A model generated the notes under the pieces. That model worked only from the letters and a program-made list of their open reading frames with translations, was not told the origin of the DNA and made no database searches. A DNA stretch of 53,452 nt from Syncephalis plumigaleata. Its lineage: Eukaryota; Zoopagomycota; Zoopagomycetes; Zoopagales; Piptocephalidaceae. A program made the position numbers and the translations under genes. The number at the start of each line of letters is the position of its first letter. Position 1 is the first letter of the stretch. The stretch is from positions 1-53,452 of the forward strand of contig JAIXMF010000053.1 in the NCBI GenBank assembly GCA_025201365.1, written 5' to 3'. Shown here one piece after another: positions 30,901-36,218 of the stretch.

Positions 30901-33112
30901 ATGCTTACTCTACTGTATGACTATGCTGCTATACCTAGTCAATAATAATAATGAATAATAATAGGCCAGAGTAGTATGGCTGTATTCAACAGTGGTTCTT
31001 TATTCATATGCTTGCTTGTTAACCAGTGTTTATTCAGTATCAATGATCAAGTATCATACTCATAATAATCACTTCATAGCACGCTACCGGTAGTTGTAAC
31101 AGCATGCTATTGTTGTCTATCGCTTACCATTCTTCAATGGTCATTAACACGCACACACACATTGATTATCTACATGACAGTAAACGCACTAATCCACTTC
31201 ATAATACTAGCACTCGATGTGTCAACCTATATTCATATACATGATGTTCAATACAATGACAATAACAGGTGTACGCGTCATTATTGATGGAGTATTATGA
31301 AATGATGATGATGTGTAGATTCAGACAGTTGACAGAGCATGCAGTTACACGACATGACAAACACTCATCACTAATTGCTATGATGATTAAACAGATGGAT
31401 AGCTTTCCTTACATTTCCATTTTAATCGATACTCATATGCATCGTGTGCATCTAAAAGGGATTAGATAATAGTGGCTATATTTACACTCACCTGATGCAT
31501 GTCTAGTTCAATTGTAATAGCTCATACGATGTGCATTCATTGTGGAGAGAGGAATGGATACATGATACATTGCAAACAAAGGTGACAACGCAACCATACG
31601 GTAATTGACCCGGGTAACTCATGTCGACGTTTCACTTTCTCTATTTGGATTGCATTCGACAATTGACAGAAACAAGCTGGACATGTATTCCTCCATCTAA
31701 TTGGTACTCATCTGCTCGGTGTACTACCACACCAATACTACTTGTCATCTGGTATTCGTCTGTCCATTGTATCCGTCAATGATCACTCGCATATTGACTA
31801 CTACTACTACTATTCATTCCATAATACACTAGTCATGTATACAACAATCAATACAATTATTACAATAATATCATTGTATCATCAATCAATACATAGTAGT
31901 CGATGTATCTGGATGTACAATACAAACAACCAATACCAGTTGATGCAAGTGTACGCGTCATCATTCACCGAATATATCGATAGCTATCAATGATAATGGT
32001 GATACGATATATTCTGGCCATTTGATTGATATCTACGTCATTGCACTAATAGAAACAGGTATTGTAACCTATCAAGGTGTTCAATATCACAAATAAACAA
32101 ACACACTACCAAGCCTCTTTTCATATGCACAGGCCATATACATAGCTTCTCATCCGGAGATGATCAATTGACAAGTTCAACGTCGGACATTCACCAATAG
32201 CAATGGCATTGGTATGTGAACACGGCAGATATATGTTGTACGTCCATGTCGAGAGAGGAATACTACATGGATGTTGCTGATTGGTTCTCAACAGGAATAA
32301 TGATGTGATCATGCAAGGATGGGCATAGAGGATCAACTTGACATTGCTTAACACTGAGCATTCGAACTACATTGCCCATTGACAAATACAAGTTAGTGTT
32401 TGCATTCACCAATAGCAATAGCACTGGTATGCGAATACGGCAGACGTATGTTGTACGTCCATGTGAAGAGAAATACTACGCGAGTGCTACTAGTTGATTC
32501 CCGTACAACTAATGATGCAGCCATATGCCAAAGACTGGTACTGTTCATCCGCTACTTTGCTTTCCTGTACATCTTGCATGTACTGGTAGCTGATAGAGAC
32601 ATGCCGACGCGTACTCCCCTATCTAATTGGTACTGGCTTGCTCGGTGTACTACCGATAAGTAGCAGATTAAAGGCTTGGCTATGTCGCTATCAGTCATCG
32701 ACAAAAGTAAACCAATTGAAGTGGACGTGATTCACTAGCGAATGTCACATCTACTGGTCAATATCCACATGGATGGCATGGTAAACGTGCAGTCTGATGG
32801 ATGTTCCATCATTCCGAGTACAATCCATGTACAGAGGAGAGTATTGTATGAAGATAGTCTGACTGTGGCCTATGGCCATCGTATTATGTCCACTAGGAAT
32901 ATCCGCCATTATTATCTCGGCTATAAATTGAGCACTTTTTGACACACTCGATTTGTCATCTTCATACTCGCTCTTCTACTCTATTCTAGCTGCTACTACT
33001 GCTACTCGTATATACCACTGCTTTCTACTCTCGTTCTATTATACTATCACTACTTTCTACTCTCGTTCTAGCCAGTTTATCTGTCTATCCATTCCACTAG
33101 GCCAACATCAAC
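30901..33112. other. Non-coding region with duplicated segments, ending in a pyrimidine-rich leader
   Basis: No gene is seen. It contains the duplicated segments at 31262-32660. The last 160 bp before the ATG at 33113 are pyrimidine-rich with two copies of TTTCTACTCTCGTTCTA (about 33027 and 33054), probably promoter or 5' UTR of the micro-exon gene. Confidence 0.4.
31262..32660. repeat. Diverged segmental duplications
   Basis: Pairs seen by eye: GTGTACGCGTCATTATTGA (31269) with GTGTACGCGTCATCATTCA (31948); ATCTAATTGGTACT...CTCGGTGTACTACC at 31695-31730 and 32618-32653; and the 62-bp stretch CATTCACCAATAGCAAT...TACGTCCATGT at 32188-32249 and 32403-32464. Confidence 0.65.
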
Positions 33113-34708
33113 ATGAAGCTCTCTGCCGTTCTCGCTATTGCCATCGCCGTTGTCGCTGTCGCCAGTCTGGTCGCCGTTGAAGCCAAGCCCGCATTGGCCC
33201 GTCGTGGTATGTCACAGGAACAACAAGAACAATGATAGTAATGGACACTAGCTGACTCATTAATGATTGCTCGATAGCTGGCAAGTCTACCATCTGACCA
33301 CAATGTCCCGTGTATTAACCATGCTGTATCACTATTTGTACATTTATTCCGTCAATAGTTGGTATGTTGTCAATGTAATAATGATCCCATTCAATGTGCT
33401 AACCGTAATACAATCATGCTCAATCCTCCTGTGTGCGTGTGTGTCTATTCCGATAGTCGAACGTAGGTTTGCCAATCAATAAATAAACCACCTGACATGC
33501 TACTAATCATACTGCCATATCGACACGGTACATGGATCAATAGGCCGTAAGTAGTTGTCATACTATGCTGACCATACCATACAATGAGCTAACCATCCAA
33601 ATGGAATTATTCCACAAATAGGTGGTACGTATGACTACTATGGTCATGTCGATTGATGTACTAATCGTAGTCTATTGTTTCATTGTCCATTGATGATTAT
33701 CGATAGCTCGTAAGTTCATGTGTACCAAGTGGTTGTTTTGACATGCTAATCGCATTGCTATGTTTATTCTATCTATCAATTGTTAGCAAATCCTCGTAAG
33801 CTGGTTTATTGACCATAACAAGTACTATGCTAACTGTAATGTAAATCAAAATAATATGTGGCTACCATTTCAAGAGGATGTAAGTAACCATCTTGATTGC
33901 AATGAATGAGGTACTAACTACGATATGGCACATAACCTACGTATGTTCCTGTATGATAGGAGGTAAGTTATCATCCTGATTGCAATGAATGATGCACTGA
34001 CTACATTATGACACATAACCTACGTATGTTCCTGTATACCAGCCTGTAAGTTATCATCCTGATTGCAATGAATGAGGTACTGACTACGATATGGCACACG
34101 ATTTGCGTATGCTTTTGTATGCTAGACTGTAAGTTACCATCCTGATTGCAATGAATGAGGTACTGACTACGATATGGCACACGATTTGCGTATGCTTTTG
34201 TATGCTAGACTGTAAGTTACCATCCTGATTGCAATAAATGAGGTACTAACTACGATATGGCACACGATTTGCATATGCTTTTGTATGATAGGGCGTAAGT
34301 TACCATTCTGATTACAATGAATGGGGTACTAACTACGATATGGCAAATGATCCATCTACGTTATTGTATGATAGGAGGTAAGTAATTATTCCAGTCGTCA
34401 TCTACGATATGCTGATCACAATACAATACATGTTAATTGAATGATAGGAAGAATAAGCAGTAAGTAACAATCCACAATAATCCACAATAATCATAACCAT
34501 ACTAATCCATTATGATTACAGAACAAGACAAGGACATCATCCAGTAGATATTATAGGTATTCAAGTCAAGAATGGATTGGTGCAAGATCCTCATTTAGTG
34601 TCCATGCCATTCAAGTTATTATTCCTTGGACCAAGAAATATATCTACAAGATCATTCAATCATTTATTGAATAAATATGTCGTATTGATCATTACACTAG
34701 TGATATAA
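33113..34708 (+). CDS. Predicted secreted micro-exon peptide gene
   Basis: Seventeen exons, 115 aa. Exon 1 (33113-33206) encodes a complete signal peptide (MKLSAVLAIAIAVVAVASL to about VEA) and KPALARR, a basic end that may be a processing site. Fifteen micro-exons follow: 33278-33284, 33359-33361, 33457-33462, 33544-33546, 33622-33624, 33707-33709, 33787-33795, 33877-33879, 33960-33962, 34043-34045, 34126-34128, 34209-34211, 34292-34294, 34375-34377 and 34448-34459. The terminal exon is 34522-34708. Nearly every intron starts GTAAGT/GTATGT/GTACGT and ends TAG or AG. All but the first micro-exon are multiples of 3. The spliced frame stays open; the insert adds two Cys (RTPCSK context) and a basic KNK. 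Three-nucleotide exons are extreme, so alternative splicing or skipping is likely. A second terminal frame is also open, so the C terminus is uncertain. Confidence 0.5.
33880..34377 (+). repeat. Tandem 83-bp repeat: 80-nt intron plus 3-nt exon, six units
   Basis: Six consecutive units begin GTAAGT at 33880, 33963, 34046, 34129, 34212 and 34295, each ending in AG followed by three bases (GAG, CCT, ACT, ACT, GGC, GAG). The period is exactly 83 throughout. Units at 34046 and 34129 differ at one position by eye. Each has a CTRAC branch-point-like sequence. It is best read as a tandemly amplified intron. Confidence 0.85.
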
Positions 34709-34772
34709 ATGTAGTTGATTATTCATGTAGATGAAACTACCTGCTACTAACAGCTGCCATTCTACACGATAG

Positions 34773-34909
34773 CTGGACCAGTGGCTGGTAAAAAGGATGC
34801 ACGAGAGATCATGATACAGGGTGACCATGTAAACAAAGTCAAACGGATATTGGCAAGCTATAGCATTCCTGAGCATTACGTCGAGGTGGATAACAAGAGC
34901 AAGAAATAA
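34773..34909 (+). pseudogene. Isolated SUI1-like tail exon resembling eIF2D/Tma64
   Basis: After a 62-nt intron-like segment (GTAGTTG...TACTAAC...CGATAG), a 44-codon frame reads AGPVAGKKDAREIMIQGDHV and continues to a KKK-like end before TAA. EIMIQGDHVNKVKRIL...IPEHYVE matches the last beta-alpha unit of the eIF2D/Tma64 SUI1 domain (pattern VQIQGNQ...LP..HI). No preceding eIF2D domains (PUA, winged helix, SWIB) are in the window, and the upstream sequence in the required phase has a stop at 34701. It is probably a duplicated or stranded fragment. Alternatively it is a 3' exon joined to the micro-exon gene through the GTATTC donor at 34557. Confidence 0.42.
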
Positions 34910-36218
34910 TACAAGTAGTACACGTTTGCATTTCAATAATCGATCATGACCATGATGCTTTATTTTATCCTAATATACGCTTGTGAACACACTCGTTTGT
35001 TTACTCGTTTGTTTACTCGCACGTTCAATAATCACGTAACTATTACCGTGACACTCATAGACGATAGTAATGCTCGTTAATGCACACACTCGTTTATTGC
35101 TTTTTATTCTTTTATTCGTTCTCTAACAACACATACACCACCACAACTCATGCTTTTCCTCTTACTTCACCTTCGTCTACAGTCATCTACGGGCTACGCT
35201 TAGCTGCAAGCGTATACTACTTGTCGTTGTGTTGTTCTCGGTCGGTCGTCTTGTTCCCGTCTAGTCTGCCGCTTTGCCAATGACTACTTGTCGATTATGT
35301 TGATTGTATGCCGCGTACTCGTATTTTGTATCGCTACTTGTTGGCAGCCTCACTCCAATCTGTATGCTCTGTCATAAGCACACTTTGCTCTTCACGCTGT
35401 GTAGTATTTGGTTCTTTATTCGTTGTCGATCAACGTGGCATACACCCCACTGGGTCTTTCATATTGGTCTATCCTCTATTCGGTTCTCTCTTTCTCGCTC
35501 CCTTGTCTACTTGCTTGCGACACTCCCTTGCCCTCACTCATGTATTTCTATTATTTCATACCGTGTCCTTTATTCACGACGTTTGCTTGCCGCGTTGTAC
35601 CACTTTATTCGCGTTGACTTGCTGCTCTTTGCTCGTAGTATGTGGGGACACGTACGCATACGTAACACTCGCGCTATGCATTAGGCACCACACTTGCTTA
35701 CTAGACTACAACGTCTCCACTCGCTGCTTTGCATTACTTACTCGTGACTTATAACTATATATGCAAGTACACGGTACTCGTGTTAATTACTAGCCAGCGC
35801 TGTTTGTTCATCTGATTGCGACATGTATACGTAACGAACACTATGCCTTCTACTCGTGTGTTGTGAAAGTACGCGTACATACATAATATCCGCGCTAACT
35901 ACTACCGATCACGTCGTTTAGCACTTTGTATTTGTAGTGGTACTATCTGACATTGTATTGCATATTGTAAATGTGTCGAGGAAATCCTATATGATGGCTA
36001 TATCTTTATTTGCATAGTACATATCAATAGCTAACATGGCACTAATAGAGGGTTGCTTTATTAACAATAAAGCACTATTGATTACTTGTACAGTTTGTTG
36101 ATGCATAATCTCTTTACATGATCTCATTGACTACTGTTTGCTATGCTCTTTAATGATGACAATTTATTTATTTATTTTTAATTTAAATCAGTAATGCACA
36201 TTAATAACCTATGAAACA
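34910..36218. other. Intergenic, partly pyrimidine-rich
   Basis: No supported gene. 34970-35800 resembles the pyrimidine-rich blocks (repeated CTCGTTTGTTTA, TACTCG) and generates spurious frames. 35800-36218 shows nothing. Confidence 0.4.

Follow-up and report, generated by a model that had tools for sequence, protein, structure and literature searches.

Serial micro-exon genes in Syncephalis plumigaleata: a large family predicted to encode secreted peptides almost residue by residue

The window, by which we mean the whole 53,452-nucleotide stretch of DNA analyzed here (contig C333), comes from Syncephalis plumigaleata, a member of the Piptocephalidaceae (Zoopagomycota, Zoopagales). The genus is described, in the available text of the source, as one of mycoparasites (PMC10386755). 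On the forward strand lies a gene that opens with a signal-peptide exon, continues through a series of very short exons, and closes with a 12-nt stop exon and an apparently untranslated terminal exon (Table 1). An initial annotation had read this locus as a secreted-peptide gene with a signal-peptide exon followed by serial micro-exons, a fungal analogue of the schistosome MEG and aphid bicycle genes, and comparison with related loci supports that reading. The signal-peptide exon is present, and the sixteen intron-like segments with GTAAGT-type donors, mostly TAG acceptors, and tiny pieces between them were confirmed; these segments measure 62–95 nt if the last one closes at TTACAG (34521).

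Table 1. Parts of the window gene, in the exon order exon 1 (33113–33206), CTG, TTG, TCGAAC, GCC, GTG, CTC, CAAATCCTC, AGGAT, GAG, CCT, ACT, ACT, GGC, GAG, GAAGAATAAGCA.
Feature	Position	Strand	Remarks
Exon 1	33113–33206	+	Signal peptide and pro-region, MKLSAVLAIAIAVVAVASLVAVEAKPALARR + G; ends in phase 1; same exon at 36 other parsed loci
Intron 1	33207–33277	+	GTATGT...TAG
Exon 2	33278–33280	+	CTG, phase 1, then GC-AG intron (GCAAGT)
GC-AG intron	33281–33358		Donor GCAAGT; conserved, same place as in 14 further loci
Exon 3	33359–33361	+	TTG
Exon 4	33457–33462	+	TCGAAC
Exon 5	33544–33546	+	GCC
Exon 6	33622–33624	+	GTG
Exon 7	33707–33709	+	CTC
Exon 8	33787–33795	+	CAAATCCTC
Exon 9	33875–33879	+	AGGAT (5 nt), phase-reset exon: phase 1 before, phase 0 after
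Array	33960–34377	+	Six one-codon phase-0 exons, 80-nt introns between, 83-nt unit
Array exon	33960–33962	+	GAG
Array exon	34043–34045	+	CCT
Array exon	34126–34128	+	ACT
Array exon	34209–34211	+	ACT
Array exon	34292–34294	+	GGC
Array exon	34375–34377	+	GAG
Stop exon	34448–34459	+	GAAGAATAAGCA, 12 nt: E, E, stop TAA, then GCA
Last intron	34460–34521	+	Within 3′UTR, GTAAGT...TTACAG; parser chose a later TAG (34547)
Terminal exon	34522–34708	+	Conserved 3′UTR without measurable coding constraint

Some boundaries in the initial annotation required revision. The supposed 7-nt first piece, CTGGCAA, is really the 3-nt exon CTG ahead of a GC-AG intron; CTG is followed by GCAAGT in 15 of 37 loci and by GTAAGT in one of 37. 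The piece read as GAT before the 3-nt run is really AGGAT (5 nt, acceptor CAAG), whose counterparts elsewhere, such as CAAG/CTGAT, CAAG/GACCT, and CAAG/AACAA, hold no internal AG. The corrected series of piece lengths is 3, 3, 6, 3, 3, 3, 9, 5, six of 3, then 12. Together with neighboring bases, exons 2–6 encode AVVERR, a second dibasic site, and the predicted product of the window gene reads signal peptide-KPALARR-AVVERR-APNPQDEPTTGEEE-stop.

Translation had originally been carried into the terminal exon; however, in the revised frame a TAA already lies within the 12-nt piece, which makes the terminal exon 3′UTR. Across 35 loci, the observed-over-expected N/S values in its three frames were 1.05, 1.37, and 1.66, with a nonsynonymous deficit in none, and codon periodicity was looked for in the alignment (35 of 37 loci) and not found. 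We did note that two frames remain open over ~50 codons in most of the 35 loci and that gaps of 3 nt are common. Rfam gave no match at gathering score over positions 32500–35500. Directly after the terminal exon, an open fragment on the forward strand (34751–34909) ends in IAGPVAGKKDAREIMIQGDHVNKVKRILASYSIPEHYVEVDNKSKK; the deposited protein P0130 has a similar tail, which matched SUI1 below threshold (E 7e-5, 23.6 of 25.5 bits). It seems that the captured 3′ end of a translation-factor gene travels with some family copies.

A DNA search of the S. plumigaleata genome (32.6 Mb, 383 contigs) with the window gene returned at least 170 matches (40 of 260 candidates scored). Beside the window, 38 loci were fetched, and in 36 of them the signal-peptide exon was matched with an E-value of at most 1e-5; the counts that follow are based on 37 loci (the window and these 36), with L043 and L044 left out because they gave no such match. 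Introns were called with a codon-blind parser: its score combines donor, branch-site, and acceptor signals with intron length and takes no account of multiples of three. The fetched loci include the haplotype pairs L014/L015, L040/L041, L012/L013, L024/L039, and L030/L031, with the window and L010 probably forming another; units share common ancestry, and unit counts are thus not independent.

The serial micro-exon structure is real and part of a large gene family. The plan shared by the 37 loci opens with a signal-peptide exon, moves through a few short exons in phase 1 to a phase-reset exon, and ends with an array of one-codon exons and a last exon. The blind parse yields 840 internal pieces. 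Of these, 711 have a length of exactly 3 nt; a multiple of three is seen in 800, and nearly all of the others (2, 5, 14, or 20 nt) are the phase-reset exon. In 34 of 37 loci, exon 1 closes with the codons for RR and a single further base, which is G in 32 and A in 2. One group of loci then carries the exons CTG/TTG/TCGAAC/GCC/GTG, which give A-V-V-E-R-R with their neighbors and are followed by CTC or similar, often with a 9-nt exon thereafter. The phase-reset exon is 5 nt in 27 loci, 2 nt in 5, and 14 nt in 3 (none was recognized in 2), and exons are in phase 1 before it and phase 0 after it. The arrays hold between 3 and 73 codons. Of their 616 pieces, 607 measure 3 nt; six are 6 nt long, one is 15 nt, and two, misread in L012 and L013, are 39 nt. 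The longest array, in L018, was blindly parsed into 83 introns and 73 consecutive one-codon exons without a stop, ending GTT TAA GCA and giving a product that runs from MKFSAV to DFAV before the stop. The last exon is 6–15 nt long in 36 of 37 loci, has a length divisible by three in 36 of 37, and closes with TAAGC(A/G), an in-frame stop, in 32 of 37; variants are a TGA at the exon start (L024, L039), a TGA (L031), and a TAA in another context (L023, L037).

The family introns (n = 877) have a median length of 80 nt, with 95% falling between 67 and 89 nt, and use GTAAGT (652) or GCAAGT (18) donors, TAG (665), CAG (166), or AAG (46) acceptors, and a CTRAY branch site (820), noting that the parser favors such signals. 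With GT-AG ends, a branch site, and short length, these parser-selected introns correspond to U2-type spliceosomal introns. When both strands of the same DNA were parsed, 642 of 773 pieces were 3 nt on the forward strand versus 47 of 390 on the reverse complement. Genome-wide, the two-exon pattern YAG-NNN-GTAAGT-(62-82)-YAG-NNN-GTAAG occurs 1,996 times (1,063 + 933), compared to three times (2 + 1) in a reversed control. Its first triplet is TAA or TGA in two cases (one sequence, on C68 and C193; two in the reversed control), TAG in none, and TGC or TGT in 60.

The signal-peptide exon is present at no fewer than 150 places in the genome, haplotype copies counted (150 of 169 candidates scored). 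Among the two-exon matches listed, all of which lie on contig C1 up to 2.55 Mb, there are 11 clusters. Seven are preceded, on their own strand and no more than ~1.3 kb away, by a signal-peptide exon; four have none among the 150. The latter four lie at 1383465–1384202, 1411531–1416857, 1663913–1664236, and 2256141–2256396, and are possibly a second family or copies with diverged first exons.

In frame 0, the 607 three-nt exons contain no stop codon, where 8.2 would be expected by composition, and zero was reached in none of 2000 shuffles (bases shuffled within codon positions). With one haplotype per locus, the count is 0 of 528 versus 7.6 expected, and zero was reached in none of 5000 shuffles. 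When the same 607 exons are joined and read in the two alternative frames, 9 and 71 stops appear, and if the misread 39-nt pieces are kept, frame 0 holds two, one each in L012 and L013. The frame proposed in the initial annotation had to be abandoned; it meets stop codons in the arrays of related loci (5 among 613 codons after joining, or 9 when the 3-nt exons alone are joined), compared to 0 of 607 in the frame adopted here. The array exons use 47 different triplets and encode all 20 amino acids. Given the absence of stops in a single frame and the genome-wide avoidance of stops, the 3-nt exons are very probably translated as single codons. From the ATG to the last-exon stop, the blind parse is open in 29 of 37 loci. 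The eight that are not cleanly open are L009, L012–L015, L020, L022, and L045; in L009, L012–L015, and L022, choosing a weaker visible splice site by hand (i.e., not blind) opens the frame to the TAA, which leaves L020 and L045 without a clearly open frame.

We compared 21 deposited proteins, 20 of which were alignable from their MKF/MKL start (P0135 was not). Four (P0124, P0130, P0132, and P0177) could be followed through to their last residue at a fetched locus, and all of these except P0130 just read into intron 1. P0130 (BDF22DRAFT_657452) contains eight of the L022 3-nt exons with the same borders, in another frame, and reads past the TAA. P0136 (BDF22DRAFT_657705) carries DDQPAFIMSQPDDEQAQFFMAMQQQ, a 25-residue stretch corresponding to 23 L033 exons in phase 0 (21 of 3 nt and two of 6 nt), with two predicted codons (AGA and CCT) omitted; outside this stretch, it maps partially to L033 (48 of 134 residues from the start). 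Five words from the stretch (e.g., PDDEQ and FFMAM) were absent from six-frame translations of the fetched loci. The remaining 15 aligned proteins showed no match to the end at the fetched loci and may sit on loci outside this set. Part of the Zoopagales mycoparasite secretome would appear to be hidden, with the mapped deposited models ending in intron 1 (P0124, P0132, P0177) or holding part of the codons (P0130, P0136). Of the metagenome relatives, some read into intron 1 (RRGTSGHGHIN) and some are contiguous (RRAPQ..., and RRAVVQRRAP in P0147); the contiguous forms could be either spliced transcripts or intron-poor genes.

The codons and introns of these arrays have evolved differently in part of the family. 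Where the 80-nt intron flanks of two units are ~8% apart, the triplets show a per-site difference of 51% if both units belong to one locus and 28% if they come from different loci (computed over all 711 three-nt exons, with haplotype copies among them). The largest difference was observed between the paralogs L017 and L021, with an exon divergence of 0.245 per site versus 0.075 in introns, i.e., codons changing three times faster. Here, 9 of 34 exons (26%) differ at two or three positions compared to 3.9% of intron 3-nt windows, two of the 14 changed codons in the unit alignment are synonymous, and the introns are equally alike beside changed and unchanged codons (0.92 and 0.93). Other pairs showed a smaller codon-intron difference. 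The probable pair of the window and L010 has 0.133 in exons versus 0.052 in introns (6 of 30 nt in the unit alignment), and in the paralogs L040/L042, exon changes fall below intron changes (0.030 vs. 0.075). Exon variability does not exceed that of introns in the five haplotype pairs: 3 of 234 exon nt differ, every one of them in L012/L013, and introns are up to ~4% apart. In window/L009, L010/L011, L009/L011, and L017/L018, the introns flanking changed codons are themselves less alike than average, indicating that unit replacement or misalignment explains part of the codon change. Gains or losses of whole units separate L030/L031, L012/L013, and the window/L010, and mean intron similarity is 0.294 at lag 1, 0.222 beyond lag 15, and 0.231 between loci. 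The pattern would fit unit turnover combined with diversifying selection after duplication, rather than constant exon hypermutation.

When each of 454 units was matched to its nearest-neighbor intron in other loci, the codon agreed in 74 by the downstream intron and in 87 by the upstream one, versus 3% by chance, an excess found at high intron similarity and hence explained for the most part by recent duplication. The idea of amino-acid-specific codon-intron cassettes, which came from TGC units with alike introns, was set aside on the same grounds. Many TGC units on different contigs share a nearly identical intron start (GTAAGTTACTATTCCCGATGATAACGTATG...), which suggests that cysteine positions share descent across genes.

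The predicted products are diverse. Peptides of the form C-Xn-CC-Xm-C, unlike in sequence, occur at four loci (L027, L032, L036, and L037); others are histidine-, glycine-, or proline-rich, with longer products at L017, L018, L021, and L038. The predicted mature peptide of L024 and L039 consists almost only of histidine and glycine, as in metal-binding peptides. Pfam gave no family above cut-off, whether for five of the predicted products, for four relatives, or for P0130, P0153, P0165, and P0166, and a PDB sequence search with one predicted product gave no match; the L032 product showed a sub-threshold match to the chitin-binding CBM_14 domain (E 0.017). A signal peptide is present as judged by sequence appearance and conservation, and it is followed by a dibasic site (RR, 34 of 37 loci). 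The genome holds a partial match to a kexin-type P-domain (P_proprotein, 66.2 bits, positions 1–57 of 86) with one TAA in frame, perhaps an intron. Both features are those of a kexin-processed peptide. Yeast alpha-factor maturation is the model for the predicted cut after RR and the putative trimming of an AP start.

Taken together, we consider it highly probable, from the sequence features described, that S. plumigaleata possesses a large family of short secreted-peptide genes with the mature part encoded almost residue by residue. Each 3-nt exon would constitute one phase-0 codon between ~80-nt spliceosomal introns with GTAAGT donors, CTAAC-type branch sites, and TAG acceptors. As a 3-nt exon is too small to hold both splice complexes at once, splicing would proceed intron by intron through intron definition. 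The peptide would then be freed by signal peptidase together with a kexin-type protease that cuts after RR. Whole codon-intron units may be gained or lost, which would lengthen or shorten the peptides, and positive selection may diversify them. On the basis of secretion, diversity, and lifestyle, from which the role is drawn, they are likeliest to be effectors or toxins acting between the mycoparasite and its fungal hosts or rivals.

The arrays could instead be composite introns, with the 3-nt pieces being ratchet points lost from the mRNA as splicing intermediates and the product comprising the signal peptide and a short tail. While AG/NNN/GTAAGT does look like a zero-length recursive exon, and the deposited ORFs P0124, P0132, and P0177 do run from exon 1 into intron 1, this is difficult to reconcile with stops being absent in one frame only, with a stop at a constant place after the array, with triplets for all 20 amino acids, with a paralog pair diversified in codons but not introns, and with GenBank models that keep the triplets; we consider it quite improbable. 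Still less can be said for a decaying 83-nt satellite with chance GT..AG ends that is no longer a gene, which appears extremely improbable given the open frame, the genome-wide avoidance of stops, the conserved signal-peptide exon, and the splice signals of the 877 introns (GTAAGT in 652 and CTRAY in 820, though the parser selects for them), despite units that are tandem, ~83 nt long, and variable in number between haplotypes.

Other alternatives leave the peptides themselves in place. The one-codon exons may have arisen by insertion of mobile, introner-like introns between the codons of an ordinary peptide gene, as opposed to unit duplication, an origin suggested by introns that are alike beside codons that are mostly unrelated and by metagenome relatives that are contiguous at the same place (P0147, P0153, P0165, and others, though these may be cDNA). 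However, haplotypes differ by whole units and neighboring introns are more alike than distant ones, such that we regard this origin as somewhat unlikely. Introners are otherwise recognized by duplicated target sites or by movement into unrelated sites. Regarding function, allorecognition and antimicrobial peptides diversify similarly, and real peptides serving self-recognition, development, or antimicrobial defense rather than attack on fungal hosts are a credible, if lesser, possibility; the family size, diversity, and mycoparasitism suit effectors or toxins at least as well.

The secreted-peptide genes proposed here resemble several known systems in part. Conotoxin-type genes combine a conserved signal and introns with a hypervariable mature part in one exon, cysteine frameworks, and dibasic processing. 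The Syncephalis genes share the conserved signal and introns, variable mature part, cysteine frameworks, and dibasic sites, but give each residue its own exon. Yeast alpha-factor precursors are kexin-processed and contain a signal peptide, a pro-region, a dibasic cut, and tandem peptide copies. The signal peptide, pro-region, and dibasic site recur in Syncephalis along with an X-Pro start in many products, which a Ste13-like peptidase could trim, whereas tandem copies are lacking and the micro-exon architecture is added. Recursive splice sites and stwintrons have adjacent AG and GT sites and stepwise intron removal that leaves no codon behind; the adjacent sites are shared, but each Syncephalis step would leave one codon.

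As far as the available text of each source describes them, micro-exon systems differ in other respects. The short exons of schistosome MEG genes span 6–36 bp and make up ~80% of the coding region (PMC5825161); a signal peptide (by appearance and conservation), coding mostly in short symmetric exons (800 of 840 pieces here), secretion, and diversified families are held in common, whereas Syncephalis exons are mostly 3 nt (711 of 840), in phase 0, up to 73 in a row, with ~80-nt introns and a stop exon. Alternative splicing gives rise to variant proteins in MEG genes. Aphid bicycle genes are likewise, in the text available, a large, fast-evolving family whose secreted products are putative effectors and whose many micro-exons keep to one phase; their internal exons are almost all phase 2, with ~17 exons on average (PMC9168663), unlike the phase-1 exons before the reset exon and the phase-0 one-codon array after it. 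CYC motifs are a further mark of bicycle genes. Thus, the Syncephalis genes work like MEG and bicycle genes and, with 3-nt, phase-0 exons, fall under neither definition; we claim no relationship to the MEG genes. Single or paired 3-nt exons are known; the Dactylellina haptotyla lipS genes, for instance, have two (PMC5639578). These are isolated exons that, in the accessible part of that report, belong to no serial array or secreted-peptide family. Similarly, the functional microexon of Trichoderma virens Xlr2, described in the portion available as single, regulated, and in a transcription-factor gene (PMC11121469), shares the fungal setting but not the array. Among the matches listed in open full text (most subscription journals and bioRxiv lie outside), neither these genes nor serial one-codon exons were found, and the gene design is more extreme than the micro-exon genes we found described. 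Exon size here is at the coding limit, with one codon per exon for as many as 73 consecutive exons, and the family counts at least 150 signal-peptide exons. Such arrays make it testable whether and how the spliceosome can accurately join tens of 3-nt exons, and whether an intron-rich structure speeds the gain, loss, and replacement of single residues in peptides.

Since nearly every exon is a whole phase-0 codon, any subset could be skipped with the frame kept, and the secreted-peptide genes might conceivably act as combinatorial writers, with exon skipping letting one gene of tens of one-codon exons produce many peptides, each a single residue apart from others in the library. This we regard as rather unlikely; if true, the library would be tuned by donor strength, and skipping of the last exon would add a ~50-residue tail from the terminal exon. 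In the deposited model 657705, both missing codons have GTAGGT donors, and a third exon of the same run with a GTAGGT donor was kept.
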